From the NCBI GenBank assembly GCA_018882635.1, contig VERN01000005.1:1-37089 (forward strand): DNA of 37,089 bases, written 5' to 3'. Each line of letters begins with the position of its first letter. Position 1 is the first letter of the stretch. Positions 3,511 through 34,389 of the stretch are shown piece by piece. This DNA comes from Beijerinckiaceae bacterium. GTDB lineage: Bacteria > Pseudomonadota > Alphaproteobacteria > Rhizobiales > Beijerinckiaceae. The notes beneath the pieces are model-generated. The model was not told the DNA's origin and made no database searches. It was given only the letters and a program-made list of their open reading frames with translations. The position numbers were made by a program, and so were the translations under genes.

Positions 3511-3525
3511 GCAATCTTTGTGCCA
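3511..3525 (-). promoter_or_regulatory. Sigma-54 promoter of the hook/rod-protein operon
   Basis: Minus strand reads TGGCACAAAGATTGC, matching TGGCAC-N5-TTGC. The expected start site is about 3499, 17 bases before the ATG at 3482. This fixes the gene start, since the longer in-frame start at 3578 lies upstream of the promoter. Confidence 0.8.
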
Positions 3526-3664: not shown

Positions 3665-4465
3665 ATGGTTCCGTCATCTCGGCCGAAGTTTAAATGGTCA
3701 ATGCTTGTCATTCCCGCCACGATCGCCGGATTGGCGGCGATACTTTGGTGGATGCCACCGGCCGCACCCGTGTCTGCTTTGCTTGACCCGGTTTCGTTTG
3801 CGCTTGTTGCTGGTGGCACATTGATCGTTGCTATGCTGCGTTCAGGACCTGAGGCATTTGCCTACTCTCTGGCAGCATTGAAACAGCGCATGGAACCGGC
3901 CGCGGAACGTCAGGATCGGCTTGCCGCCGAATTCACGGCGATGGCCGCGATCGCACGGCGCTCCGGCCTCGTGGCCCTCGAATTCCATCCCGTCGAAGAT
4001 CCGTTCACCGAACGCTGCCTCGCCCATCTTGTCGATGGCGCCGATGAAGAGCGGCTCACGGCCATTCTCGATCGTGAATTGATGAATCTTGATGAAGCCA
4101 ACACACGTGCAATCGATGCGTGGCAGGGCGTGATTGATCTCGCACCCGCGATTGGACTGATTGGCACGCTCATCGGCCTTGTGGGGCTTCTGGGTCAATT
4201 GAACGATCCGCATGCGATCGCGCCCGCGCTGGCCGTGGCATTGTTGACCACTCTTTATGGCGCGATGATTTCTAATCTGATCGGTATTCCGATTTTAGCG
4301 CGCCTGCGCCACCGCGTGATCGCTGATTTCGATCATAAATTGCTGATAGCAGAAGGGTTAAAAGCCCTTGCACGCGGAGAAGGGCCACGGCGTATGCGTG
4401 AAACGCTGATGCCGCTTGCTCCCACAACGCCAACTCTGACACTCGTTTCCAATTCAGTATCATGA
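3665..4465 (+). CDS. PomA-like flagellar stator protein (MotA/PomA family)
   Basis: Inner-membrane stator subunit that, with its MotB/PomB partner, conducts ions and pushes on FliG. The 266-residue product has four predicted membrane segments: two near the N-terminus (about 12-30 and 40-57) and two at about 160-180 and 190-212. The stretch APAIGLIGTLIGLVGLLGQL, followed by NDP and AVALLTTLYGAMISNLIGIP, is close to the Vibrio PomA sequence and unlike the E. coli-type MotA encoded at 32482. The cytoplasmic loop contains ARRSGLVALE, also PomA-like. It overlaps the partner gene by 4 bases (ATGA). Sodium use is inference; the family call is firm. Confidence 0.9.
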   Translation: MVPSSRPKFKWSMLVIPATIAGLAAILWWMPPAAPVSALLDPVSFALVAGGTLIVAMLRSGPEAFAYSLAALKQRMEPAAERQDRLAAEFTAMAAIARRSGLVALEFHPVEDPFTERCLAHLVDGADEERLTAILDRELMNLDEANTRAIDAWQGVIDLAPAIGLIGTLIGLVGLLGQLNDPHAIAPALAVALLTTLYGAMISNLIGIPILARLRHRVIADFDHKLLIAEGLKALARGEGPRRMRETLMPLAPTTPTLTLVSNSVS

Positions 4466-5229
4466 ATATTCCTGCCACCATCGCTGACCGTGGCGCACGC
4501 CGCTATCTTACGGCGCGCAATGGTTCCTCATGGCTGATCACTTTTGCCGATATGGCGATTTTGATGGTCGCCTTTTTCGCGGTGATTATTTCCTTTACCG
4601 AGATTAATCCGCAGAAATTCGACACGCTGACAGGCGCCATGGGCGACCGCTTTGGCACTGGCAAGCGGCAAGGCAATGCGCTTGTTGCCATCCTTCCAGA
4701 AGTACAGAACTTACCTCCTGTCACAGCGCTTGATCTGCCGCCTGAACCACCTCCCCTTGTCGAAGCACCGGCTGATCCCGACACCCGCGAAGCCGTTCTC
4801 GTCGACCTTGCAAAACAATTTGATCCGCTTCTCGCCAATGCTGCGATCCAGATGCAGCAAACGCCGCAGCGGATCGTCATCTCGCTCGGCGCCACTGGTT
4901 TCTTTCAATCAGGATCCGCCGATCTCGATCCAAAAGCGCTTGAATCGCTGACACGCATTGGCCGGATCGCGGGCACCGCACCTGTCGAATTGACGATTGA
5001 GGGGCACGCCGATTCAAAACCAGTTTTAGGCGGACGTTTGAAAGATAATTGGGAATTAGCCGCTGCACGCGCAGCCGCTGTACTCAATGTGCTGGTCGAG
5101 ACATCGGGATTGCCGCCATCATCATTTAAGGTGGTGAGCTATGGCGCTTCACGCCCAACCGCTTTGGAGACGGACCCCATTGCACAGGCTCGCAATCGTC
5201 GCGTCGATATCGAAATCACTTACAAATAA
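4462..5229 (+). CDS. PomB-like flagellar stator protein with OmpA domain
   Basis: Partner of the preceding PomA-like protein. The 255-residue product has a single membrane helix at about residues 22-45, SSWLITFADMAILMVAFFAV, with the ion-binding Asp at residue 30, followed by the SFTEINPQKFDTLTGAM plug-type region that recalls PomB. The C-terminal half is an OmpA-like peptidoglycan-binding domain (TIEGHADSKPV, NWELAAARAAAVLNVLV, YGASRP, RNRRVDIEI). The pair is the only plus-strand operon among flanking minus-strand flagellar operons. It differs from the second MotB (33349-34389), which has the proton-type signature. Confidence 0.9.
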   Translation: MNIPATIADRGARRYLTARNGSSWLITFADMAILMVAFFAVIISFTEINPQKFDTLTGAMGDRFGTGKRQGNALVAILPEVQNLPPVTALDLPPEPPPLVEAPADPDTREAVLVDLAKQFDPLLANAAIQMQQTPQRIVISLGATGFFQSGSADLDPKALESLTRIGRIAGTAPVELTIEGHADSKPVLGGRLKDNWELAAARAAAVLNVLVETSGLPPSSFKVVSYGASRPTALETDPIAQARNRRVDIEITYK

Positions 5230-8056: not shown

Positions 8057-10162
8057 TCACTGCTCGGTTGCGCCAATCACGGCGGCGACGTTGATACGTT
8101 TGGATTCAGGAATTTCACGATAGGATAGAACGAGAGCATCGGGGATCGCTTGACGCACCAACGCGGCAAGATCGCGGCGCAGGATCGGTGCGGTGACAAC
8201 CACAAGCGTCTTGCCCTGATCGGCGAAGACGCGGCTCTGTTCTTGGAACGATTCGACGAGCTTGCGACCAAGTCCCGGCTCAATCATGCCGGAATCACGG
8301 CCACCGGCGCGCGCATTCTGCACAATGATTTGCTCAAGACCCGAGTCGAGCGTGACGACATTGAGTGCTTCTTTAGGATTGGAGACACGCTGGACAATAA
8401 CAGGCGCCAAAGCAATGCGCGCTGCTTCAACCAAATCGTCAGGCTCGCGCCCCTTCGATCCGGCAAGCGCTTCGAGAATACGTTGCAGATCGGTGATCGG
8501 AATTTGATCTGACACGAGGGATTTCAGAACCTGGGTCAAGAGTGCCAGCGAAACCGTCTTTGGAACGAGGCCAGAGACCAAGTTAGGCGATGTTTTAGCA
8601 ACGTGATCGAGCAAGGCCTGCACATCATCTTGGCCCAGCAAATCACTGGCGTGACGCATCAACAATTGATTGAGATGAGTCGCGATAACGGTGGACGGAT
8701 CAACCACGGTATAGCCAGCGGCTTGTGCACGGGCGCGATCATTCTTGTCGATCCAGACTGCATCAAGGCCGAAGGTCGGATCCTTCACCTGCTCGCCCGG
8801 CAACACGACATTGCTAGAACCGCCCTGAATGGCAAGCATGCGGCCAGTGACAACTTCGTCGTCAGCAACAATCACGCCTGCAATGGTGATGCGGTAAGCA
8901 TTCGGTTGCAACGACAGATTGTCACGAATGCGCACGGCCGGAATAATAAAGCCGAGATCACGCGAAGCTTGTTTACGAATACCAGTGATACGGCCGACGA
9001 GTGCGCTCTTGCCATCATCTTCAACCAAGGGGATAAGGCCATACCCGACTTCAAGCATCAAAGGCGCGCGCATCGACACGTCTTCGATTGTGATATTCTC
9101 GTCGTTCTCTTCGGTTTCACCTTCGGCCAACGGAGCGGCCTTGGCTTCTTCGCGCTGCTCTTCAGATGCTTTGAACTTATTGCCATAATAACCGACAGCC
9201 GCGGCCACGCCGCCTGCGGTCAAGAACAGCATTGTCGGCATGCCCGGAATGATGCCGAAGAGCGCGATGATACCAGCGACCGGATACCAAGCACGACCAT
9301 TGCCGAGCTGGAGCATCAAACGATCAGTAAGATCATGCGCTGATGAATCACGTGTGACGATGATGGCGGTTGCAAGCGACAGCAACAGCGAGGGGATCTG
9401 TGCAACAAGGCCGTCACCAATTGTCAGGGTGACATAAACCTGCGCCGCTTTGCCGATAGGCATGTTGTATTTCAGCATGCCGATGATGAGGCCACCGATA
9501 ATGTTAATGCCCAGAATGAGAAGTCCGGCGATCGCGTCGCCCTTCACGAATTTTGTCGCACCATCCATCGAGCCGTAGAAATCGGATTCGCGCGATACTT
9601 CTTCGCGGCGCTTTTTGGCTTCTTCAGGCGTCAACAGGCCGGCATTCAATTCGGCGTCGATGGCCATCTGCTTACCGGGCATCGCATCGAGGGTGAAGCG
9701 CGCTGAGACTTCAGAGACGCGGCCCGTGCCTTTCACGATGACGGCTAAGTTGATGATGATCAGGATCAAGAAGACTAAGATCCCGATCACAAAATTGCCG
9801 CCGATGATGAACTCACCGAAGGACTTGATGACCTGCCCGGCGGCATCCGTGCCTTTATGACCTTCGGTGAGAACCACACGGGTCGAGGCGACGTTGAGCG
9901 ACAGGCGCAAAATGGTGGCGAAGAGCAGGATCGTCGGGAAGGACGAGAACTCGAGCGGCCGATAGGTGTTCAGGCTCACCATGAGGATGACGAGGCCGAG
10001 CACGATATTAAAAGTGAAGAAGACATCGAGCATGGTGGGCGGAACCGGCACCACCATCATCAGGATGAGCGCAATCAACGCGACCGGCATCATCAGGGCG
10101 CGTGAATTCGCCCCAAAGCCACCCTGTCGAGAAACCGCCGCCGTATCAGACACGCTCTTCAT
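8057..10162 (-). CDS. flhA: Flagellar type III export gate protein FlhA
   Basis: FlhA is the main membrane component of the flagellar export gate, forming a nonameric ring that uses the proton motive force and docks chaperone-substrate complexes. The product from the ATG at 10162 is 701 residues, the usual family length. About eight membrane segments fill the first 330 residues, starting ALMMPVALIALILMMVVPV, with the FHIPEP-family signature LRLSLNVASTRVVLTEG; the cytoplasmic domain follows. A longer frame to 10603 would run through the promoter and into the flgP region and is rejected. The gene heads a flhA-flhF-flhG-fliA operon driven by the sigma-54 site at 10250-10264. Confidence 0.97.
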   Translation of the reverse strand: MKSVSDTAAVSRQGGFGANSRALMMPVALIALILMMVVPVPPTMLDVFFTFNIVLGLVILMVSLNTYRPLEFSSFPTILLFATILRLSLNVASTRVVLTEGHKGTDAAGQVIKSFGEFIIGGNFVIGILVFLILIIINLAVIVKGTGRVSEVSARFTLDAMPGKQMAIDAELNAGLLTPEEAKKRREEVSRESDFYGSMDGATKFVKGDAIAGLLILGINIIGGLIIGMLKYNMPIGKAAQVYVTLTIGDGLVAQIPSLLLSLATAIIVTRDSSAHDLTDRLMLQLGNGRAWYPVAGIIALFGIIPGMPTMLFLTAGGVAAAVGYYGNKFKASEEQREEAKAAPLAEGETEENDENITIEDVSMRAPLMLEVGYGLIPLVEDDGKSALVGRITGIRKQASRDLGFIIPAVRIRDNLSLQPNAYRITIAGVIVADDEVVTGRMLAIQGGSSNVVLPGEQVKDPTFGLDAVWIDKNDRARAQAAGYTVVDPSTVIATHLNQLLMRHASDLLGQDDVQALLDHVAKTSPNLVSGLVPKTVSLALLTQVLKSLVSDQIPITDLQRILEALAGSKGREPDDLVEAARIALAPVIVQRVSNPKEALNVVTLDSGLEQIIVQNARAGGRDSGMIEPGLGRKLVESFQEQSRVFADQGKTLVVVTAPILRRDLAALVRQAIPDALVLSYREIPESKRINVAAVIGATEQ

Positions 10163-10249: not shown

Positions 10250-10264
10250 GCAATGAGCGTGCCA
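10250..10264 (-). promoter_or_regulatory. Sigma-54 promoter of flhA-flhF-flhG-fliA
   Basis: Minus strand reads TGGCACGCTCATTGC, an exact consensus match. The predicted start is near 10238, giving a leader of about 76 bases to flhA. It is back to back with the flgP promoter at 10278-10292, so one activator-binding region could serve both operons. Confidence 0.85.
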
Positions 10265-10277
10265 GCGATTTTCGTCG

Positions 10278-10292
10278 CGGCACGGTTTTTGC
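10278..10292 (+). promoter_or_regulatory. Sigma-54 promoter of the flgP-flgT-flgA-flgM operon
   Basis: Plus strand reads CGGCACGGTTTTTGC, differing from the consensus TGGCACG-N4-TTGC only at the first base. The predicted start is about 10304. This lies downstream of the ATG at 10253, so that upstream start cannot be used from this promoter. Confidence 0.8.
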
Positions 10293-10330: not shown

Positions 10331-10759
10331 TTGCGTAAGTTTGGTCCCGTTCTGGCTCTTTCGCTGCTCGCGAGCGGCTGTGTCGCCGTGGGCGGCCCTG
10401 TGCCGGTCGATGCAGAGGGCAATCCCGTTCCGTTGAGAGGCACTGGTTATGCCACCATCTCGGTGCAGCCGGGTCGCTCCACCGCGCAAAAGCAAATCGT
10501 GGCGATCCGTGCCGCGAAGATCAGCGCCATGCGCGATCTGGCGGAAAAGATTTACGGTGCCCAGATCGATGCCGCCTCCTCCTCTGTGATTGGGCGGATG
10601 CAAGGCGATTATGTGCGGGCCAACATTGAGGGCATCGTGCGCGGAGCCCGGACCGTGAAGATCGGTCTGATCCGTAAGGATGTGTATGAGGTTGTCCTGG
10701 AAGTGGACCCGCAGGACGTGGCGGCGATGCGGCTTAATCCGCGCCCGACCTATCGGTGA
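10331..10759 (+). CDS. flgP: FlgP-like outer-membrane lipoprotein (LPP20 family)
   Basis: Predicted lipoprotein of 142 residues. The start chosen is TTG at 10331, with AAAGGA 8 bases upstream; it gives a compact signal peptide RKFGPVLALSLLASGC with the lipobox LASGC (Cys17). An ATG at 10310 is in frame but only about 6 bases past the predicted transcript start. The mature part has the LPP20/FlgP pattern: AAKISAMRDLAEKIYGAQID, then a RANIEGIVRGARTV segment and a VYEVVLEVD strand. In Vibrio, FlgP is an outer-membrane lipoprotein of the flagellar basal disk, encoded near flgT, flgA, flgM and flgN; the same neighbours are seen here. Confidence 0.75.
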   Translation: MRKFGPVLALSLLASGCVAVGGPVPVDAEGNPVPLRGTGYATISVQPGRSTAQKQIVAIRAAKISAMRDLAEKIYGAQIDAASSSVIGRMQGDYVRANIEGIVRGARTVKIGLIRKDVYEVVLEVDPQDVAAMRLNPRPTYR

Positions 10760-10767
10760 GGTCAGCC

Positions 10768-11865
10768 ATGAAGCGGCCCCTGCTATCGTTTTTGGTTATC
10801 GCCCTTACCCTGATTGCCGGGCCGGCTCTGGCCGGGCTTCGCGTGGTGCAAGGTGAAGGTTTCGCGCCCATTCAGGGCAAAGGCACAGCCGCCGCGCGCG
10901 AACGCGCCCTCGCTGCTGCCCTTTACGATGCTGCCAGCCGGCTCCAATCGAAGGTCCGCGGCGCCAGCCAGCTCGACATTAATGGCCGGCTTACCGAAGA
11001 AATGACGACCACGGTTGCGGCGCAATTGCGCGGCTATGAGATCATCAAGGACGGCCAGATGGGCTCGAACTGGATGATCGTCGTCGAAGCCATCGGCGAG
11101 GGTGAAAACGAAGGTTCTTGCGATCCCAACCGCCGGGTCGACCTCGATATGAGGCATGTTTCGATCCGCGTGGCTCCGGGCATTCAGGGCCATGCCAATG
11201 CGGCGATGTATGAGGGCCTGGCCCGCGGCGTCGAGGCGCTCGCCACCGGCGGCACCTATGTCGTGGCCGACCAACGTTATCTGCCGCCGCTACGTGGGGC
11301 CGAACGCAATCACGCCTCCCGGCTTGATTATGCCATGCAGGTCTCCGGCGATGTGCCGAGCCCATCGGGCTATTCGCTGTCGGGCACAATCATCGCCGAG
11401 ATTGACCGGAACGATTATTACATCGCCCAGAGCAAGGCGATTACGGTGTCTATCTCTCTGAAATTACGCGATAATTTCAATGGCGTGACAATCGCCAATA
11501 TCCAAGAGCAACAGGTCATCCCGGGCTCGACCAAGGTGTATGGCTTCCCGAGCAGCGGCTTTGACAATATGCCAAAGGTCAATCTCGCGCCCCTCTTTGA
11601 CAAGGTCGAAGGCGCGCTGAATGCGGTTCTAGCCTGTAAGCCCCTGCGGGCTGTGGTGCTCTCCCATCAGGGCAACAAGCTCGTGCTCTCGGCAGGCCTC
11701 AACAATGGCGTGAACCCGGGCGATTACTTCCTTGTGAATGGGAAAGGCCGCGAAAGCTGGCAGATCTTGAAGATCGAGGATGCATCAGCCGGCCGTGCCA
11801 TTGCCCGTCCGATCCGACCCGGCCGTCCTGTGCCGGTCAATTCTCTCGTTGAGATGCTTCTTTAG
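10768..11865 (+). CDS. flgT: FlgT-like flagellar H-ring protein
   Basis: Periplasmic protein of 365 residues with a cleavable signal peptide (KRPLLSFLVIALTLIAGPALA). It resembles Vibrio FlgT, which builds the H ring around the LP ring and helps recruit stator elements. An N-terminal domain has the pattern GKGTAAARERALAAALYDAASRL, seen in FlgT_N, a middle domain follows, and the C-terminal domain carries LVLSAGLNNGVNPGDYFLV, typical of the small beta barrel of FlgT_C. The ATG at 10768 has GAGG 6 bases upstream; a GTG at 10756 overlapping the flgP stop is an alternative. Family assignment is by pattern and context and is likely but not certain. Confidence 0.72.
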   Translation: MKRPLLSFLVIALTLIAGPALAGLRVVQGEGFAPIQGKGTAAARERALAAALYDAASRLQSKVRGASQLDINGRLTEEMTTTVAAQLRGYEIIKDGQMGSNWMIVVEAIGEGENEGSCDPNRRVDLDMRHVSIRVAPGIQGHANAAMYEGLARGVEALATGGTYVVADQRYLPPLRGAERNHASRLDYAMQVSGDVPSPSGYSLSGTIIAEIDRNDYYIAQSKAITVSISLKLRDNFNGVTIANIQEQQVIPGSTKVYGFPSSGFDNMPKVNLAPLFDKVEGALNAVLACKPLRAVVLSHQGNKLVLSAGLNNGVNPGDYFLVNGKGRESWQILKIEDASAGRAIARPIRPGRPVPVNSLVEMLL

Positions 11866-11876
11866 GATTTAACACC

Positions 11877-12587
11877 ATGAAACGTCTCTTTCTGACCCTT
11901 TTGATGGCGGTTTTAGCCGCTCCCTCCTTGGCCAACACCGATAAGTGGGGTCCGGATGATCTGCGCCGGGTGCTTGCCAATTGGCTGGAACAGCAGGGAA
12001 CGAATGTTCCTTCGATGGCTGCCATTGGGCCACTCGACCCGCGCTTGCTGATCACACCGTGCGATATGCCGGAGATTTCGGTACGGAGTTCGGCGTCCAC
12101 CTCTTACGTGTTGAAGTGCAAATCGCCGGAAAATTGGCAATATGTGCTGCGTTTAGACGGTGATCAGCGCGCTGCGACGCCTGAACAGCGGGAAAAACAG
12201 CAATTTGGCACAATCGTTGTGCCGAAAACGATGATCCCGACCGGCACCATTCTGAAAGCCGACATGCTTGAGGAACGGCCCGCCTCCGGATCCCCGCCCA
12301 TGCAAGCCTTTCGCTCGGTTTCCGAAGCGGTTGGGCTGCGCACGACCGGCAATGTGCAACCGGGCCTCGCCCTCACCATGCGGCATGTCGCTAAGGCTCC
12401 CTCTGTTCTTAAGGGCGAGATGGTGACCGTGTTGGCGGGTGGCAGCGGCTTTCAGATCGCAATGCCCGGCCGCGCTGAACAGGATGCCTATGAAGGTGAC
12501 GTCATTACCGTACGGAATCCCAGTAGCGGCAAGACCGTGACAGGACGCCTCGAACCAGGGAAAACAGTTCATGTTCGCCAATTCTGA
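11877..12587 (+). CDS. flgA: Flagellar P-ring assembly chaperone FlgA
   Basis: FlgA is a periplasmic chaperone needed for FlgI polymerisation into the P ring. The 236-residue product has a signal peptide (KRLFLTLLMAVLAAPSLA) and a C-terminal SAF-type domain: KTMIPTGTILKADMLEE, GLRTTGNVQPGLALTMRHV, VLKGEMVTVLAGGSGFQI, followed by GRLEPGKTVHVRQF at the end. Length is close to E. coli FlgA (219). It sits 11 bases after the FlgT-like gene and before flgM, an arrangement like the flgA-flgM-flgN clusters of gammaproteobacteria. Confidence 0.93.
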   Translation: MKRLFLTLLMAVLAAPSLANTDKWGPDDLRRVLANWLEQQGTNVPSMAAIGPLDPRLLITPCDMPEISVRSSASTSYVLKCKSPENWQYVLRLDGDQRAATPEQREKQQFGTIVVPKTMIPTGTILKADMLEERPASGSPPMQAFRSVSEAVGLRTTGNVQPGLALTMRHVAKAPSVLKGEMVTVLAGGSGFQIAMPGRAEQDAYEGDVITVRNPSSGKTVTGRLEPGKTVHVRQF

Positions 12588-12630
12588 GGCTGTGCAGAAC
12601 TGCTTTCTGCCGTTAAAGAAATGGAAGCTA

Positions 12631-12647
12631 GACCCGTCTTACGGGTC
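12631..12647 (+). promoter_or_regulatory. Hairpin in the flgM leader, with a possible weak sigma-28 site
   Basis: GACCCG and CGGGTC form a perfect 6-base stem around TCTTA, ending 18 bases before the flgM ATG. A TAAAGAAA element at 12614-12621 resembles a sigma-28 -35 box, but the -10 region 11 bases on (CCCGTCTT) matches the consensus poorly. The hairpin could be a processing or attenuation element separating flgA from flgM. Confidence 0.35.
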
Positions 12648-12665
12648 AGAGAAGGGAATAATCCG

Positions 12666-12962
12666 ATGATCGACGGGATTCGCCAGAACCTGACCTACCT
12701 GGATCCATCCAACCGCAAAAGCGGTAAGGCGGAAGCCGGTGGCGCGTCTGCGCCGCGCTCTTCCTCTACAGGGTCGAGCCAAGGTACAAAGCTCGTTGAA
12801 ATCAGCGCTTCCGCGCTAGACGGTGCCGCTGGTGCACCGATCGACAAATCCCGGATCGAGCAAATCCGCGACGCTATTCGCCGGAATGCTTACCCGCTGG
12901 ATTTCGGAAAGCTCGCTGAGCGCATGATCGAATCCGATTTGGGATTGTCCCCGGGGAAGTGA
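12666..12962 (+). CDS. flgM: Anti-sigma-28 factor FlgM
   Basis: FlgM binds and inhibits FliA until the hook-basal body is finished, when it is exported. The 98-residue product has a disordered, Ser/Gly-rich N-terminal half and the conserved C-terminal FliA-binding helices: IDKSRIEQIRDAIRRNAYPL then DFGKLAERMIESDLGL, the classic VxxIrxAIxxGxYxxDxxkiAexml pattern. The ATG at 12666 follows AAGGGA by about 10 bases; an upstream in-frame ATG at 12621 would place the leader hairpin inside the gene and is less likely. The next gene starts directly at its stop codon. Confidence 0.93.
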   Translation: MIDGIRQNLTYLDPSNRKSGKAEAGGASAPRSSSTGSSQGTKLVEISASALDGAAGAPIDKSRIEQIRDAIRRNAYPLDFGKLAERMIESDLGLSPGK

Positions 12963-13247
12963 ATGACGGAAGGTCCGGTTCGGGATCTCACCCAACTTCG
13001 TGACCAATTCACAACGTTGCGTAACGCACTCGCTGTCAATGATGTGGCCGCGGTGGAGGCAGCGACAGCATCGCTGCGCTCAACGCTAGAAACCTTTACA
13101 CCTGAAAACGCTTTAACGGCTGATGCGCAAGCGCTCGCGCGCGAGGTCACCGCATTAAGCGGCCAGGTCGCGGAGACATTGGCAGCGCGGCTCAACGCGT
13201 TTGATCTCGTGATCGAAGCCCTCCGGAACGAAGAAAGCACACGCTGA
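12963..13247 (+). CDS. flgN: FlgN-like export chaperone
   Basis: A 94-residue, mostly helical acidic protein immediately after flgM (no intervening base). FlgN-type chaperones protect the hook-associated proteins FlgK and FlgL before export and usually follow flgM. The sequence LTQLRDQFTTLRNALAVNDVAAVEAATASL fits the N-terminal helix hairpin of the family, but the protein is shorter than most FlgN (about 140) and sequence similarity is weak, so the assignment relies heavily on position. Confidence 0.55.
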   Translation: MTEGPVRDLTQLRDQFTTLRNALAVNDVAAVEAATASLRSTLETFTPENALTADAQALAREVTALSGQVAETLAARLNAFDLVIEALRNEESTR

Positions 13248-13666
13248 TGACGCTCTCGCTCGAACTCCTTGTCGGGCTTGTAGCCGGCATTGTTATCGCG
13301 GTCATCGGGCTTTTGATCCTCCGCAAGCGCCCGGCCTTGCCGAAAATCAAAGGTGCTAGCACGGCAGCAAATGCCGACATGCGGATTGAGCAACTCGCTA
13401 CCCGCATCGGCATGGTCGAAAAGCAAATGCAACTCACACGGACCGATCTCGAAGCGGCCATCAATCAGGCCGTGGAATCAATGCGGGCCGATGTGAAACT
13501 TATTCAGATGCAGACGCAATCTGTGCGCAGCGGCGCTGAAACTGACATTGTCGATCTTGCCGTGCGGCTGGCACGCGAAGGTGTTGAAGCCGAAGACATC
13601 GCACGGCGCACAGGCCTGCCGCAGGATCTGATCGAGTCGATCCGCGTCCTACACAAAATCAGCTAA
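13247..13666 (+). CDS. Membrane-anchored coiled-coil protein, DUF2802-like
   Basis: A 139-residue protein with one N-terminal membrane helix (about 4-24, LELLVGLVAGIVIAVIGLLIL), a central coiled-coil (about 42-90) and a C-terminal motif VDLAVRLAREGVEAEDIARRTGLPQDLIESIRVLH. That motif resembles the short helix-turn-helix-like end of DUF2802/YlxL-type proteins that occur in flagellar and chemotaxis clusters. The ATG overlaps the stop of the FlgN-like gene by one base. It ends directly against the convergent gene at 13667. Function unknown. Confidence 0.65.
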   Translation: MTLSLELLVGLVAGIVIAVIGLLILRKRPALPKIKGASTAANADMRIEQLATRIGMVEKQMQLTRTDLEAAINQAVESMRADVKLIQMQTQSVRSGAETDIVDLAVRLAREGVEAEDIARRTGLPQDLIESIRVLHKIS

Positions 13667-14368
13667 TCAGATTTGATCCATCGCCGCTTCCACCTTCGGC
13701 GGCGGGAGAGGCGCCTTGCGGGCTGCGCGATTGCGTTTTGTGGTTTCAATCTCAAGTGCCGCAGCATCACTGCTATTGGCTACCATGACATCGCCGCGCT
13801 TGGCGTAGCCCTGCTTTTCAGCCGCACTGCGTATGAGGTAAGCGCCCGAGGTCAGAACCGGGAGCGATGTGACGACATAGGTGAGGATGAAAGGCACAAG
13901 CCCCATCATCGCTGCGATGCCATAGACCAGAAAGGCGCCTGTCAACATTTGCCATAGGCGGTAGCGTGTATAGAGCATCACCGGCACAATGGACCAAAGA
14001 GGTGAAATACGTTCTGGCATTAAAAGTAAAATGCCGTCAGCTTGCGTGCCACACGAGTAATGCAGCCATTTCCCGTCATCGACGGGAACACTGACCTGAT
14101 CAAGCGCCGTGGTCGCCTCGAATGTTGCGCCTATCAAACCGTCACGCGGCTGCAATTTGAAATAGACATCGCCACGCATGATCGTGAGCCAATCTTTGGC
14201 ACCGATACTCTGCACAAGCTCAGGATCTTCTTTCAGCTCCGAGGTTTTACGCGCACCAAACGACAGAATGAGATCACCCGGGACAAGGCCGCTGCGCTCA
14301 GCCGGCGTGTAACGCAAAACGGCTGACACAAGAACGGGATCATCAAAGCTGCGCATTTCCATCGGCAT
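13667..14368 (-). CDS. PDZ-like membrane protein downstream of flhB
   Basis: A 233-residue protein with no named family that I recognise. The N-terminal 75 residues look like a PDZ domain: VLVSAVLRYTPAERSGLVPGDLILSFG is the usual carboxylate-binding loop and GDLI strand. A middle domain (about 76-120) precedes two membrane segments at about 140-160 and 162-182, then a basic, Pro-rich tail ending EAAMDQI. It lies 13 bases after the coiled-coil gene, last in the flhB-led string. No catalytic protease residues are visible. It could scaffold or regulate the export gate or another envelope structure; this is inference. Confidence 0.65.
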   Translation of the reverse strand: MPMEMRSFDDPVLVSAVLRYTPAERSGLVPGDLILSFGARKTSELKEDPELVQSIGAKDWLTIMRGDVYFKLQPRDGLIGATFEATTALDQVSVPVDDGKWLHYSCGTQADGILLLMPERISPLWSIVPVMLYTRYRLWQMLTGAFLVYGIAAMMGLVPFILTYVVTSLPVLTSGAYLIRSAAEKQGYAKRGDVMVANSSDAAALEIETTKRNRAARKAPLPPPKVEAAMDQI

Positions 14369-14381
14369 TGGTGGGTCCTGC

Positions 14382-15242
14382 TTATGGATAGCTGATTGGT
14401 GGTTCGGTCCGACGCGGCGGGACCGAACCTGTCGTCTTCGGATTGCGGACTGTTGCCTGCGGAATGATCACCGGCTTAGGAGGCTGCGCTGCAGCGGGCG
14501 CAGCTGCATTATTCTTCAAGCCGTTGAGCTGGCCAACCACTTCACTCAGCCGCGTCGTCAGGCTTTTTTGCGCTGTTTGCAATTCGTCAACGCCCTGTTT
14601 GATGGCATTGATCGTCTTGTCCGTATTAGCAGCCAATGTCACCTTGGCGCTCATCGCATTCTGCGACACTTGCAAGGTCTGCATCTGTTTTTTCAATTCT
14701 TCGGCATTGGCCGAGACATTTGCCAATGCCTGCATTGTCGCCTTTGACGTCTCCGTCATCTGCTTAGATGTGGCGATCAAAGCATTGATTTCGCCCGCAA
14801 AGGCGAGAAGGCCATCACGATTGGTTTTAGCCATCATCTCGAATTCATTCAGCGAACGCTTATAGAAAACGAGAGCACCAAACACACCAACACCACCCAT
14901 CACGAGAATGAGCAGTGTGGTATAAAACAAAATCATATTGTTGCGGCGGTTGCGATTGATGAATGTGCTCACCTCTCCGCGCAGGCGCTGAATTTCCTGG
15001 GCTGAATCGACGGCCGTCCCGGCTGCGGCCAGCGCAAGTTCAATCGCCTCATCGAGCCGCGGCTTCCCGCCTTCCGCTTTTGCTTCGGATTTGGCTGCCT
15101 TGACCTTTTCGCCAATCGCATCAGCCTTCACCTCAGCCGCAGACGCCTTGCCCTCACCCGTCGCTTCGGGCGCGGTTTCGGTTTTGGGAGCCGCCTTGGC
15201 GGCCTCATCCTTCTTGGCAGGCTTTTTCGGTGCTTCGCTCAT
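14382..15242 (-). CDS. Single-pass coiled-coil membrane protein, unknown function
   Basis: A 286-residue protein with an Ala/Lys/Glu-rich disordered N-terminal third (about 1-65), a membrane helix at about 102-127 (ILFYTTLLILVMGGVGVFGALVF), a long coiled-coil (about 130-240), and a Pro-rich tail. The topology (cytoplasmic low-complexity tail, periplasmic coiled-coil) recalls TolA-like or spacer proteins, but I see no specific family. Its ATG overlaps the stop of the small Cys protein by 4 bases. With that gene and the PDZ-like gene it forms a coupled set behind flhB. Confidence 0.7.
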   Translation of the reverse strand: MSEAPKKPAKKDEAAKAAPKTETAPEATGEGKASAAEVKADAIGEKVKAAKSEAKAEGGKPRLDEAIELALAAAGTAVDSAQEIQRLRGEVSTFINRNRRNNMILFYTTLLILVMGGVGVFGALVFYKRSLNEFEMMAKTNRDGLLAFAGEINALIATSKQMTETSKATMQALANVSANAEELKKQMQTLQVSQNAMSAKVTLAANTDKTINAIKQGVDELQTAQKSLTTRLSEVVGQLNGLKNNAAAPAAAQPPKPVIIPQATVRNPKTTGSVPPRRTEPPISYP

Positions 15243-19915: not shown

Positions 19916-20521
19916 TTATTGCATCACGAGTCCGGTAATATAGACGTCTTCAATGCCGCCGAACTCAGTTCTGTCGGTCAGCACCTTATTGATCGCATCT
20001 TTCAAGAGGCCCTGGATGCGCTTGCGGTTCTCAATACCCACCACATCGCCTTCTGTCTGCTCGCCTAAGACGCCCAGCACTTCGGCGCGGATAGCGACCT
20101 CGTGCTTTTGAACGTTTTCAATGACTTTCTTGTCATATTGGGTGGCAAGACCAATGCTGATCTGCACAAAGCGCCGTGAGCCTTTGAGGTTCGTGGTAAA
20201 ATTGCCCGGAAATTCGAAATAGCTGGTGACGAATTTTTCCTTCGACGGGACAGGCTTGCCAGCAGGCTCGGCCGGCTTTTGATCCTTGCCGTCCTTACCA
20301 TCCTTGCCTTTCGCATCTGCCGCTTTGGCGTCGCCGCCTTCGGGCTTGCGCTCCACGACAATAGCCAGCGGATTTTCTTCCGGCGGCTTTGTCAGTTTGG
20401 CATACAGCAAGCCGCCGCCAGCACCGATGCCGATCATGACCAGCGCACCGACAACCATCAGCAAAATCTTGACGATCGGCTTTTTCTTTTTCTCTTGCGG
20501 TTCTTCAGCTGCCTCGGCCAC
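19916..20521 (-). CDS. fliL: Flagellar basal body-associated protein FliL (paralogue 2)
   Basis: Single-pass membrane protein linked to stator function. The 201-residue product has a membrane helix at about 15-37 (IVKILLMVVGALVMIGIGAGGGLLYA), a Lys/Asp/Gly-rich charged linker (about 60-90), and the periplasmic FliL domain with NFTTNLKGSRRFVQISIGLATQY and the terminal EDVYITGLVMQ. Its location between fliK and fliM is the standard one for fliL, so this is the orthologue; the protein at 1264-1812 is the extra copy. Confidence 0.93.
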   Translation of the reverse strand: MAEAAEEPQEKKKKPIVKILLMVVGALVMIGIGAGGGLLYAKLTKPPEENPLAIVVERKPEGGDAKAADAKGKDGKDGKDQKPAEPAGKPVPSKEKFVTSYFEFPGNFTTNLKGSRRFVQISIGLATQYDKKVIENVQKHEVAIRAEVLGVLGEQTEGDVVGIENRKRIQGLLKDAINKVLTDRTEFGGIEDVYITGLVMQ

Positions 20522-28400: not shown

Positions 28401-29564
28401 TCACTCTGCGGCCATCAAAGCGCGCTCAAGCGGCACTTCGACAGGACGGAACATTTCACCAAGATCAAGCATCAGATGCTCGCCTTCGATACGCTTGCCG
28501 CCGGAGAGAACGAGCGCGCGCTGCAACACGTTTTCGAGCTCGCGCACATTGCCGGGCCAAGCGTAGGTTTCGAGCTTCTCGATCGCTTCTTCCGTGACTT
28601 CTGGCAGCTTCGGGAAGCCACCTGCATGCTTGGCGAGGAGCGTCACGGCGATGGGCAGGATATCGCCGGGACGATCAGCCAGAGCTTGCGTCGCCAAGGG
28701 GAAGACGTTGAGACGATAGTAAAGGTCTTCGCGGAAACGACCGGCCTTCACTTCTTCGAGCATGTAACGATTCGATGTTGCGATGACGCGCACATCAACC
28801 GGAACCGGCTTGGCGCTGCCAAGCGGTGTGACTTCTTTTTCTTGCAGAACGCGCAGGAGTTTCGCCTGGAGTGGGAGCGCCATCTCAGACACTTCGTCGA
28901 GCAACAGCGTGCCGCCATCGGCAGCGCGGAAAATGCCCTTGTTGGGATGATGCGCACCGGTAAAAGCGCCGCGCTCATAGCCGAAGAGAACGGCTTCAAG
29001 CATTGTGTCTGGCAGAGCCGCGCAGTTGATAGCAATAAAAGGCTCGCGATTCCGTTTGGAGGAATTGTGGAGGTATCGCGAGAAGACTTCCTTGCCGGTG
29101 CCTGTCGGACCGACGAGCATGACTGTCACATCGCTCGCCGCTACACGGCGCGCCAGACGCAACAGGTTGAATGTTGAGGGATCGCCCACCGCCACGCCCT
29201 GCTCCTCATCGAGGAAGCGCGAGACGACTTCGGCGGTGAAACGCCAATTGTCGGCCGATGGCGTAATACGAAGCGACGACCCATTGAACTCGCCCTTCAG
29301 CGCAAAGGCTTCGCCCGGTTCGTCGAGCATCACGATGCGCTCGGCTTTCAACTGGCGGCAAATCTGGGCAAAGCCAGCTGCATCGCGTGCGAGCTTCTTC
29401 AGAACAGATGAGGCCAGCAGGAGGCCGCACCGGGTCCATTCGGGTTTGAGACCAGCCAGCGACGCGATCGTCGCGGTGTTCGTCTCATGGCCGCGTCGAT
29501 GAAGATGGGTCAGCCAAGCTTCGCCATCCACCATGCCGTCGGTAATGCACAACACTGCAGTCAC
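28401..29564 (-). CDS. fleT: Sigma-54 activator lacking a DNA-binding domain (FleT-like)
   Basis: AAA+ bacterial enhancer-binding protein of 387 residues from a GTG at 29564 with GGAG 6-7 bases upstream. It has an N-terminal domain of about 120 residues that is not a typical receiver, then the central domain: Walker A GPTGTGKE (152-159), the sigma-54 contact loop GAFTGA (199-204), Walker B LLLDEVSEM, and the WPGNVRELENVL segment. It ends about 30 residues after the AAA+ domain and has no helix-turn-helix. Rhodobacter sphaeroides FleT has this same architecture and lies just before fliE. A frame extending to 29651 would include the promoter and is rejected. Confidence 0.82.
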   Translation of the reverse strand: MTAVLCITDGMVDGEAWLTHLHRRGHETNTATIASLAGLKPEWTRCGLLLASSVLKKLARDAAGFAQICRQLKAERIVMLDEPGEAFALKGEFNGSSLRITPSADNWRFTAEVVSRFLDEEQGVAVGDPSTFNLLRLARRVAASDVTVMLVGPTGTGKEVFSRYLHNSSKRNREPFIAINCAALPDTMLEAVLFGYERGAFTGAHHPNKGIFRAADGGTLLLDEVSEMALPLQAKLLRVLQEKEVTPLGSAKPVPVDVRVIATSNRYMLEEVKAGRFREDLYYRLNVFPLATQALADRPGDILPIAVTLLAKHAGGFPKLPEVTEEAIEKLETYAWPGNVRELENVLQRALVLSGGKRIEGEHLMLDLGEMFRPVEVPLERALMAAE

Positions 29565-29601
29565 GACACTCTCCACTGGTCGCTTCGTCGGAGAGGCTAG
29601 A

Positions 29602-29616
29602 GCAACAGGCGTGCCA
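29602..29616 (-). promoter_or_regulatory. Sigma-54 promoter of fleT-fliEFGHIJ
   Basis: Minus strand reads TGGCACGCCTGTTGC, an exact consensus match. The predicted start is near 29590, 26 bases before the GTG at 29564. The site lies inside a longer in-frame extension of the activator gene, which is therefore unlikely to be translated. Confidence 0.85.
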
Positions 29617-29707
29617 GCAGCTTGAGCGCGGCTCCCGTCTATCCCTGTCAATTTCGGCTAAGTGTAAGATTTTATTAATAAATAAATTCAACTTGAGATC
29701 CCAACCC

Positions 29708-29726: not shown

Positions 29727-29847
29727 TAAGACGCGCTTTTGGGCCTTCTTTCGGCAATGTTGCGCGGAATCTCGACGGTTCGCCTTGTATGCAACTATAG
29801 CTTTTGTCAAAAATCCGACAGCAACTCTAGGGTGGGTCTTCGCCGTC

Positions 29848-30981
29848 GTGACCAAAGACGATGTAATGCGTTATCTGGACCTGCCCAGCACATCGATGCG
29901 GGAGGTTTTGCACCTCATCACGCGGGTGGCTCCCCTTTCGACGACCGTTTTCATCAATGGACCGTCCGGCAGCGGCAAGGAGTTTGTTGCCCGCGCGATT
30001 CATCTTCTCTCCACGCGCGAAGAAGGCCCCTTCATTGCCCTCAATTGCGGTGCCGTGCCGCGGGATCTGATTGAAGGCGAGCTCTTTGGCAGTGAAAAAG
30101 GCGCCTATACGGGATCGGTGAAGACCCGCGCGGGCCTGATCGAGATGGCCGCCGGCGGCACGCTGTTCCTCGACGAAATCGGCGACATGCCGCACGACAT
30201 GCAGGTTAAGCTCCTGCGTGTGCTCGAAGAACGCGTTTACACGCGGCTCGGGGGCTCGCAACCCCTCAAGGCTGATGTCCGGATCGTTTGCGCAACCCAC
30301 CGCAATCTTCAGGATCTGATCGACGATCGGCAATTCCGCGAGGATTTGTTCTACCGGATCAATGTCTTCCCGATCATGCTCGATGGTCTTGACCGGCGGC
30401 GGGCTGATATTCCTCGGCTGGTCGAATTGATTGCCGAGCGGTTCAAGGATCAAGGCATTGGCCCGATGCCGGTTTTCACCGCCGAGGCCGTCAAAACGCT
30501 GCAGGGCGCCGAATGGCCCGGCAATGTCCGCCAGTTACGCAACACGCTTGAGCGCGCCGGTGTTCTCTATGGCGGCGACACCGTCGATGGCGAGCGGATG
30601 CAGCAGCTGGTGGGCCCACGCAAAAACATTGATCGTGATGAAGAGGCCCATGCCCTCTGGGACGCGGTTGGCGATCTCGGCCTCTTGGCCGATGCCGCCC
30701 TGCCCGATCTTGGGCTCGGAGCACCGGTCTCGGCTGTATTGATGGGCGATGAAGCGGATCCGGCCGGATCTTCTCTAGCGGCTGATCCCCGCATGGTCCT
30801 GAAGGCTGCCAGCGAGTTTAACTTGAAGGATCATTTGGCCGAAATCGAGATCGCGTTCATCAAGGCCGCCTTGGCCGAGGCGGGCAATTCAGTGTCGAGC
30901 GCCGCGCGGATCCTCGGCTATCAGCGCACGACCCTGATTGAACGGATGCGTAAGTTCTCGGTGCAGCGCGAAGACGCCTAG
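29848..30981 (+). CDS. fleQ: Sigma-54 activator with C-terminal HTH (FleQ-like)
   Basis: AAA+ enhancer-binding protein of about 377 residues with no N-terminal receiver domain. Walker A is GPSGSGKE (about 38-45), Walker [11 protein letters not shown], and the arginine-finger region [12 protein letters not shown] is present. The sigma-54 contact loop is GAYTGS (85-90), with the last Ala of GAFTGA changed to Ser. A Fis-type helix-turn-helix closes the protein ([24 protein letters not shown]). The start is uncertain: GTG 29848, ATG 29866 or ATG 29785; none has a strong ribosome site. It is divergent from the FleT-like gene, which lacks an HTH, and the two probably cooperate as the master flagellar activators. 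Confidence 0.82.
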
Positions 30982-31486: not shown

Positions 31487-31501
31487 TGGCACAGGACTTG
31501 C
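31487..31501 (+). promoter_or_regulatory. Sigma-54 promoter of the second hook/rod-protein gene
   Basis: Plus strand reads TGGCACAGGACTTGC, matching TGGCAC-N5-TTGC. The start would be about 31513, leaving a leader of about 57 bases to the ATG at 31570. It may also serve the downstream motA-motB genes. Confidence 0.82.
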
Positions 31502-32481: not shown

Positions 32482-33345
32482 ATGTTCGCTGCAATCGGCT
32501 TTGTCCTGCTTTTCGTCTTCGTGTTCGGTGTTTATATCGTGCACGGTGGCGATATGGGCCCGATCATCAAAGCCGCCCCGTTCGAAGTCGCCACAATTCT
32601 GGGTGCCGGCATCGCGGCCATGCTCATCGGCAATGATATCGGCACGATCAAAGGGGTCGCGGGCGGCTTCGGCAAGGTGTTCGGTGGACCGAAATGGAAG
32701 AAGCAGGATTTTCTTGACGTTATCTTTCTTGTGTCGCGTCTGATGAAAATTCTCCGCGTCGACGGCCCGGTAGCGCTTGAAGCGCATGTCGAAAGCCCGG
32801 AATCGAGCGCCATTTTCAGTGAATATCCACGGATCCTCGCGGATCATCATGTGCTCCATCTTATTACGGACACGATCCGTTTGATGGTCATTTCGTCGGG
32901 CAATCTGAATGCCTATGCGGTTGAAGAAGTGATGGACACCGCGATCAAGGAACATGTGCATCACGCGAACCATCCGGCGCATGCGCTGGCTGCACTTGCC
33001 GGCGCGCTGCCGGCGCTCGGCATCGTCGCGTGCGTGTTGGGCGTGGTGAAAACCATGGGCGCGATCGATCAACCGCCGATCATTCTCGGCGGCCTCATCG
33101 GTTCGGCGCTCGTCGGCACCTTCTTGGGCGTGTTCATGGCCTATGGCATCGTGGAACCCATGGCTCAACGTCTTGCCGCTGTCGTGAAGGAAGAAGCGCA
33201 GATCTATCACGTTGTGAAGCAGATCATCGTTGCCTCGCTGCATGGTCACCCGCAGCCGCTCGTCATTGAAGCGGCCCGCGTGGCGATCAGCCATCACAAT
33301 CAGCCGAGCTTCGGCGAAGTGTTCGACGGCTTGAGAGGCAAGTAA
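32482..33345 (+). CDS. motA: Flagellar stator protein MotA (proton type)
   Basis: MotA and MotB form the proton channel that drives rotation. The 287-residue product (E. coli MotA is 295) has four membrane segments: two at the N-terminus (about 2-20 and 35-50), and two later at about 170-190 and 200-222. The cytoplasmic loop has SRLMKILRVDGPVALEAHVESPESS and FSEYPRILADHH, containing the expected charged residues. The third and fourth helices contain ALAALAGALPALGIVACVLGVVKTMG and IGSALVGTFLGVFMAYG, typical E. coli-type MotA and unlike the PomA-like copy. It precedes motB by 3 bases. Confidence 0.95.
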   Translation: MFAAIGFVLLFVFVFGVYIVHGGDMGPIIKAAPFEVATILGAGIAAMLIGNDIGTIKGVAGGFGKVFGGPKWKKQDFLDVIFLVSRLMKILRVDGPVALEAHVESPESSAIFSEYPRILADHHVLHLITDTIRLMVISSGNLNAYAVEEVMDTAIKEHVHHANHPAHALAALAGALPALGIVACVLGVVKTMGAIDQPPIILGGLIGSALVGTFLGVFMAYGIVEPMAQRLAAVVKEEAQIYHVVKQIIVASLHGHPQPLVIEAARVAISHHNQPSFGEVFDGLRGK

Positions 33346-33348
33346 TCA

Positions 33349-34389
33349 ATGGCCGAAGCCAAAAAGGCGGACAGCAAAAAGGGCGGCGAGGCTGAAAAGC
33401 CCGTTGCCCCGATTATCATCAAGAAAATCCAGGGCGAAGAAGCTGCTGGACACGGTGGCGCTTGGAAAATCGCGCTCGCCGACATGATGACCGCCATGAT
33501 GGCGTTCTTCCTTTTGATGTGGCTCTTGGGCGCAACAACGGAAGCGCAACGCAAATCGATTGCCGATTATTTCAAGCCAACGCCGAAGAGCCGCATTCAG
33601 ATGGGCCAACTCGCTGGTTCAAACGGTGTTCTCGGTGGACGGTCTGTGCTTGATCCGGAAGGCTTGCCGAACGCCGCGATGCAGACATCGCTGCTTGATT
33701 TGCAACAACCTGAAGATACCGAAGGCGGCAGGGATCGTACCAAGGGTGGCGAGACCGGCGAAAATGACGCGCGTATGCCCGGCACCGATCCCAACGCTGA
33801 AAATACCGGCGGCACGAAGGGCAAGGACAAGGATTCGGCCGAGAGTGGTGGCGGCAAGGGACAAGACAAGGATCTGAACGAAAATCAGAAGCAACAAATC
33901 GCTGCTGAAGTCGAACAGAAATCCTTCGAGCAATTGGAAAAAGAATTAAAAGAAAAGCTGAAGAGCGACACTGCGCTCCAGCAACTTGAAGGTCAGGTCC
34001 GTTTCATCCGCGACAAGGAAGGCCTGCGCATCGAAATCATCGACAAGGCTGATTTCTCGATGTTCGGCGTTGGCACTAATCGCCTTTTGCCGCGCGCGCA
34101 GCAATTGATCGATGAAATCGCAAAATCTGTTTCAACCATGCCGAACAAGGTGACAGTGCGCGGCCATACGGACAGCTTGCCCTTTGCTAATCCCGAACAG
34201 AAGAACAATTGGACGCTTTCTGCTGAACGTGCTGAGACAACGCGCCAATTGCTCGAACGCCGCGGCGTGCCGCCAGAACGTTTTTCCAAGATCGAGGGCG
34301 TCGCGGATACCGATCCATTCAATTCCGCCGATCCGCGCGATCCCCGAAACCGCCGCATCTCGATCACACTGAAATATCCCGACCAATAA
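33349..34389 (+). CDS. motB: Flagellar stator protein MotB (proton type)
   Basis: Stator partner of MotA that anchors the channel to peptidoglycan. The 346-residue product has a charged N-terminus, a single membrane helix (about 38-60) with the proton-type motif AWKIALADMMTAMMAFFLLM in which Asp45 is the ion-binding residue, a long Gly/Asp/Lys linker (about 110-190), and a C-terminal OmpA-like domain (RGHTDSLPF, NWTLSAERAETTRQLLERRG, DPRNRRISITL). The linker is longer than usual. Its signature differs clearly from the PomB-like copy at 4462-5229. Confidence 0.95.
   Translation: MAEAKKADSKKGGEAEKPVAPIIIKKIQGEEAAGHGGAWKIALADMMTAMMAFFLLMWLLGATTEAQRKSIADYFKPTPKSRIQMGQLAGSNGVLGGRSVLDPEGLPNAAMQTSLLDLQQPEDTEGGRDRTKGGETGENDARMPGTDPNAENTGGTKGKDKDSAESGGGKGQDKDLNENQKQQIAAEVEQKSFEQLEKELKEKLKSDTALQQLEGQVRFIRDKEGLRIEIIDKADFSMFGVGTNRLLPRAQQLIDEIAKSVSTMPNKVTVRGHTDSLPFANPEQKNNWTLSAERAETTRQLLERRGVPPERFSKIEGVADTDPFNSADPRDPRNRRISITLKYPDQ

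Follow-up and report, generated by a model that had tools for sequence, protein, structure and literature searches.

Positions 10331-12587 of the window, the 37,089-nucleotide stretch (contig VERN01000005.1) of a freshwater Beijerinckiaceae bacterium related to the rhizobia, hold three consecutive plus-strand genes, flgP, flgT and flgA (Table 1). They are followed by flgM, an flgN-like ORF and a membrane-anchored DUF2802-like ORF, the last of which is conserved downstream in alphaproteobacterial clusters. This is the flgA-flgM-flgN-like neighborhood described in the initial annotation, and that description holds, with the flgN-like gene recognized by position and size only: it gave no convincing family match among Pfam and TIGRFAM-type models. 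The surroundings of the pair comprise flhF-flhG-fliA, a fliE-to-flhB series, two sigma-54 activators, fliS, two fliL genes and two stator pairs.

Two divergent sigma-54 promoters serve the flgP and flhA sides of the locus. The site directed toward flhA is present at all 41 loci compared, and the one directed toward flgP (plus strand) at 32 of these 41, as against 59 of 912 background tiles. A scan for sigma-70 promoters found nothing. The promoter also bears on the start of flgP. An earlier ATG at 10253 lies upstream of the sigma-54 site; because that site falls between the two candidate starts, the TTG is favored and the ATG is unlikely to be used. The divergent order flhA/flgP-flgT-flgA-flgM is the rule in Hyphomicrobiales and recurs in full on an Octadecabacter arcticus plasmid, while flhA/flgP-flgT is also found in clusters of other alphaproteobacterial families. 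By their gene context and predicted promoters, flgP and flgT belong to a polar-type flagellar cluster under sigma-54 control. Across the window, exact TGGCAC-N5-TTGC promoters number five (1222-1236, 3511-3525, 10250-10264, 29602-29616 on the minus strand and 31487-31501 on the plus strand).

Table 1. Features of the flagellar cluster, numbered from the first letter of the window
Feature	Positions	Strand	Description
motA1	3665-4465	+	PomA-like stator A subunit; top PDB match Vibrio PomA, 1.2e-37
motB1	4462-5229	+	PomB/MotB-like stator B subunit; MotB_plug 9.2e-12, OmpA 5.8e-17
flhA coding core	8057-10069	-	FHIPEP 2.3e-244; ORF extends upstream beyond this core; of gammaproteobacterial type, used as marker to place the cluster in trees
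Sigma-54 promoter of flhA-flhF-flhG-fliA (divergent)	10250-10264	-	TGGCACGCTCATTGC, exact
Sigma-54 promoter of flgP-flgT	10278-10292	+	CGGCACGGTTTTTGC, one mismatch
flgP	10331-10759	+	LPP20/FlgP-family outer-membrane lipoprotein; TTG start; lipobox LLASGC
flgT	10768-11865	+	H-ring protein homologue of 365 aa, secreted to the periplasm; ATG at 10768
flgA	11877-12587	+	P-ring formation chaperone; ChapFlgA 9.4e-21, TIGR03170 1.7e-26
flgM	12621-12962	+	Anti-sigma-28 factor; PF04316 1.8e-6 (above cut-off), TIGR03824 1.4e-8 (below cut-off)
flgN-like ORF	12963-13247	+	Named by position and size only; syntenic in relatives
DUF2802-like ORF	13247-13666	+	Membrane-anchored; PF10975 2.6e-4 (below cut-off)
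MotF-like candidate	14382-15242	-	One TM helix and a coiled coil in the periplasm; gene follows flhB directly
fliL, first copy	19916-20521	-	Stator-associated; PF03748 1.7e-18
Two sigma-54 activator genes	28401-29651, 29785-30981

Identity of FlgP and FlgT

The product of flgP is, judged by its sequence matches, a true FlgP homologue, as the initial annotation had held in assigning it to the LPP20/FlgP type. Among PDB sequences, the window protein alone matches Vibrio FlgP with an E value of 6.8e-14 (phmmer), and a profile of its family does so at 5.8e-22. It begins with a lipoprotein signal and lipobox, MRKFGPVLALSLLASGC, and the lipobox is retained in nearly all relatives. The protein is 47% identical to its counterpart on the Octadecabacter arcticus plasmid pOA238_118, and its dN/dS against two congeners is 0.07. 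Its predicted structure is of low confidence and matched Lpp20 and Tip-alpha alone, both weakly; it was therefore set aside as evidence.

The product of flgT is likewise, on sequence and modeled structure, a true and full-length FlgT homologue. Its N-terminus, MKRPLLSFLVIALTLIAGPALA, reads directly as a Sec signal peptide without a lipobox; an alternative GTG start at 10756 overlaps the flgP stop. A profile built from 33 relatives and searched against 177,635 PDB sequences has Vibrio FlgT as its top match, end to end (residues 3-316, E 2.4e-5), and two family-invariant cysteines align with cysteines of the Vibrio protein. Within 24 kb around flgP of Aeromonas caviae, the same Hyphomicrobiales profile picks a single ORF over its whole length (profile positions 8-325), and this ORF carries FlgT_N, FlgT_M and FlgT_C. 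Selection on flgT is purifying (dN/dS 0.08-0.10 against the two congeners).

Structure prediction against Vibrio FlgT, proposed in the initial annotation as a check, favors the same assignment. The AlphaFold2 model of the window protein (pLDDT 80, pTM 0.68) has the Vibrio FlgT structure 3w1e as its best Foldseek match (E 1.1e-18, 382 columns, TM 0.51), followed by the Vibrio FlgT chain of the LPHT-ring structure 8z5n (6e-18), and is predicted to adopt the three-domain fold of 3w1e.

Domain models gave a divided answer. The initial annotation had looked to FlgT_N/M/C and LPP20, and it is the relatives that match: FlgT_N was found in 33 of 33 FlgT proteins (best 2.2e-11), FlgT_C in seven and FlgT_M in none, and LPP20 in all six FlgP relatives of alignment A1 (best E 2.2e-5). 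As single sequences against Pfam, the window proteins fall below the cut-offs. FlgT_N, the only FlgT domain matched in window FlgT, reaches 20.5 bits (E 7e-4) where 28.8 is required, and LPP20 reaches 17.2 bits (E 0.0099) in window FlgP where the curated cut-off is 25.9. We attribute both shortfalls to the sensitivity of the models, so that homology and fold carry the FlgT assignment. A genome-wide FlgT_C search returned no match and is set aside as evidence, since this model also missed most true relatives. Similarly, tblastn with window FlgT against plasmids returned nothing, though an Octadecabacter plasmid carries a homologue, which is too diverged for a single-sequence search.

These low domain scores leave some room for a different identity, that of a periplasmic protein unrelated to motor rings but sharing the fold superfamily of Lpp20, HpaA, CsgG and PelC. 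The fold is indeed common to HpaA, CsgG and PelC. However, Foldseek places Vibrio FlgT ahead of the next fold (1.3e-6) by 12 orders of magnitude, Vibrio FlgT is also the best match in the whole-length profile search, and across the relatives flgT and flgP stand side by side within flagellar clusters. We consider such an identity hardly credible.

Stator genes, origin and distribution of the cluster

FlgO (PF17680) and MotY (MotY_N, PF18393), which the initial annotation had not seen, are absent from the window genome and a congener (G000 and G001), with Aeromonas caviae controls at 2.4e-39 and 1.5e-48, respectively. On the Octadecabacter plasmid, a SEL1-repeat protein gene (locus L060, 23558-24151, minus strand) adjoins the FlgP/FlgT operon; it gained no support as a possible MotX, its best PDB matches being generic Sel1 proteins.

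The window retains a PomA-like stator. MotA1 keeps the equivalents of PomA T158, T185 and T186. Vibrio PomA requires all three of these residues, and it depends on T158 and T186 to bind Na+ (PMC6677748). MotB1 keeps the TFAD aspartate and does not retain the equivalent of PomB S27. For C. sphaeroides Fla1, the coupling ion is H+ (PMC7277832). A second stator pair, consisting of an MotA_N-type MotA and a 346-aa MotB, lies at 32482-34389 (plus strand). There are also two fliL paralogues, at 1264-1812 and 19916-20521 (minus strand). A paralogue of FliL in Sinorhizobium, which also bears the name MotF, influences the activity of the stators.

The gene directly after flhB encodes a MotF-like candidate, a name taken from position and topology. 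A homologue occupies the equivalent position on the Octadecabacter plasmid (E 1.5e-12), and 26 of 27 family members have one TM segment, the topology of R. sphaeroides MotF (PMC7277832). On this sequence evidence, a wider range of MotF is possible. The conserved series after flhB also includes a gene for a PDZ-domain membrane protein (13667-14368, minus strand), with a positional counterpart on the Octadecabacter plasmid.

The FlhA trees place the cluster apart from the alphaproteobacterial type. Window FlhA falls in a clade (support 100/100) that unites Sphingomonadales with the Hyphomicrobiales loci and with other alphaproteobacteria that carry FlgP/T, Octadecabacter among them; Rhodobacterales are represented by G590 and Octadecabacter, without a C. 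sphaeroides sequence. The clade excludes gammaproteobacteria and adjoins the polar gammaproteobacterial FlhA of Aeromonas and Pseudomonas. An ancient gammaproteobacterial acquisition would fit this position. Vertical inheritance as an alphaproteobacterial operon is ruled out by the trees, and the initial label of an alphaproteobacterial flagellar operon was to that extent misleading: the cluster is of gammaproteobacterial type, far from the second FlhA of the same genome, which groups with Azospirillum. That second flhA is of alphaproteobacterial type and belongs to a gene set (contig C44, 1-6675; L059) with a flbD-like regulator, fliN, a fliH-like gene, fliG and a fliF fragment. Dual flagellar systems are likely in the window genome. 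Two FlhA occur in each of the three genomes of the genus, and two other Beijerinckiaceae with FlgP/T (G029 and G031) have a single FlhA, adjoining flgP. Three Sphingomonadales-type clusters of the window FlhA clade (L092, L093 and L112) have no flgP or flgT beside flhA or flgA, which suggests loss there or gain in the other lineages.

Relatives of the pair were drawn from whole genomes and a species-genome collection. The collection gave 33 loci (L008-L040), most of them in freshwater MAGs that belong to Beijerinckiaceae or elsewhere in Hyphomicrobiales, with one isolate, TNE-4 (L009). The distribution is patchy: FlgP/T occur in 7 of 100 relatives, and a sample of 385 alphaproteobacterial genomes gave FlgT in 13, with weak matches among these. 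In 397 other sampled genomes of the window's order, no full-length FlgT was found and there was one short, weak match only. In the Rhodobacterales-like genome G590, flgT ends early (L091, 11977-12882) and is followed by IS21 istB-like sequence and then the contig end, which suggests an IS21 insertion into the gene. Because of this arrangement we draw from G590 no conclusion on the length of Rhodobacterales FlgT.

Proposed role and comparison with known systems

We consider it probable that these are a true FlgP and FlgT of a Fla1-like, sigma-54-controlled cluster, and that they would build an H-ring and a basal disk acting as a stator hub. FlgT, exported by Sec, would most likely form the H-ring around the L/P rings, and lipoprotein FlgP the basal disk beneath the outer membrane, to which it would be attached. 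The ring outside the LP ring envisaged in the initial annotation is thus supported as likely. Together, H-ring and basal disk would brace the outer-membrane opening. The FlgT ring would also be a hub that gathers FliL, the MotF-like membrane protein and the MotA1/MotB1 stators, as has been proposed for C. sphaeroides. It is the absence of FlgO and MotY that points to the FlgT ring itself as hub. Since the cluster combines FlgT, FlgP, FliL, a MotF-like protein and MotAB without FlgO or MotY, the mechanism most likely resembles that of C. sphaeroides, with H-ring and basal disk probably serving the stators of the window cluster without a T-ring.

It is useful to set this proposal against a simpler role, in which the FlgP and FlgT rings serve assembly, in outer-membrane penetration and as a bushing, and the stators are kept in place by FliL and by MotB binding to peptidoglycan alone. 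Loss of FlgT in Vibrio leaves mostly periplasmic flagella, and loss of FlgP abolishes the external hook and filament (PMC7990780). FlgP of C. sphaeroides, an outer-membrane lipoprotein, is likewise essential for assembly (PMC7277832), and MotY, which together with MotX links the Vibrio H-ring to the stators, was not found in the window genome. However, the C. sphaeroides flgT mutant assembles a flagellum that does not rotate, and its FlgT, seen by EM as an H-ring, interacts with FlgH, FliL, MotF and MotB (PMC7277832). The retention in the window of FliL, the MotF-like protein and the PomA-like stator also speaks for a stator function. We therefore regard a role restricted to assembly as unlikely, though a serious competitor. 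A very improbable alternative is that the acquired cluster is decaying or unexpressed and that its rings are not built. The second, alphaproteobacterial-type FlhA with fliF, fliG and fliN elsewhere in the genome would allow this, as would the patchy occurrence of FlgP/T and the want of full-length matches in the other genomes of the order. Yet the frames are open, dN/dS is low for both genes, the promoters are conserved, and two relatives possess only the FlhA on the FlgP/T side.

The preferred reading, that of rings acting as a stator hub, has a precedent. C. sphaeroides Fla1 has FlgT and FlgP without MotX or MotY (PMC7277832), and a 2026 review names this species as the single alphaproteobacterium with H-ring homologues (PMC13023049). 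Given this precedent, the window pair is a further case of a known type of ring genes. The expectation that such a ring would be unusual in an alphaproteobacterium does not stand, in view of Fla1, the sampled genomes with FlgT and the Octadecabacter plasmid. Relative to the open-access literature, the new elements are the order Hyphomicrobiales, the large set of relatives and the conserved divergent sigma-54 arrangement. H-ring homologues are thereby extended beyond C. sphaeroides to 33 further loci, nearly all in Hyphomicrobiales and with a fixed gene order. These are natural H-ring gene sets without FlgO and MotY and can be used to test whether FlgT alone scaffolds stators. More broadly, and tentatively, with the balance leaning slightly the other way, FlgP/FlgT rings may mark an old alphaproteobacterial flagellar lineage, spanning Hyphomicrobiales, Rhodobacterales and further families and lost in Sphingomonadales, in which FlgT and a MotF-like protein replace the MotX/MotY T-ring as scaffold. 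In that case the motors of Hyphomicrobiales would represent a new kind of ringed motor, driven by PomA-like stators and without a T-ring.

Cereibacter (Rhodobacter) sphaeroides Fla1, of the "fla3" type in Rhodobacterales, is among the known systems nearest to that of the window: both have an alphaproteobacterial FlgT and FlgP, lack MotY and have FliL together with a bitopic MotF, or in the window a MotF-like candidate. Both are also of gammaproteobacterial-type origin and accompanied by a second flagellar system in the genome (PMC7277832, PMC11974857). They differ in order, the window belonging to Hyphomicrobiales, and the window MotF-like protein, likened to R. sphaeroides MotF by the description of its topology, is longer in its N-terminal part. 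C. sphaeroides FlgT has been termed a distant homologue (PMC7277832). Its H-ring is experimental, whereas that of the window cluster is predicted. The cluster on Octadecabacter arcticus pOA238_118 shares with the window the divergence of flhA from flgP-flgT-flgA-flgM, the divergent sigma-54 sites and the MotF-like gene after flhB; unlike the window cluster, it is plasmid-borne, with rpoN and the SEL1-repeat gene nearby.

The H-/T-ring system of Vibrio and Aeromonas resembles the window in its FlgP and FlgT homologues, the FlgT fold, the flgA-M-N neighborhood and the PomA-like stator A subunit. That system comprises FlgO, FlgP, FlgT, MotX and MotY, whereas the window is without FlgO and MotY, and in Aeromonas flgT diverges from flgO-flgP, whereas flgP and flgT form one operon in the window. 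Finally, the flagellar systems described for Rhizobiales are subpolar and lateral (PMC6406911). They belong to the same order as the window, and the genome's second FlhA cluster resembles their fliF-G-H-N-flbD-flhA type. The window cluster, in contrast, is distant from them in FlhA and bears FlgP and FlgT. It is a third flagellar type in Hyphomicrobiales, added to the two described for Rhizobiales.
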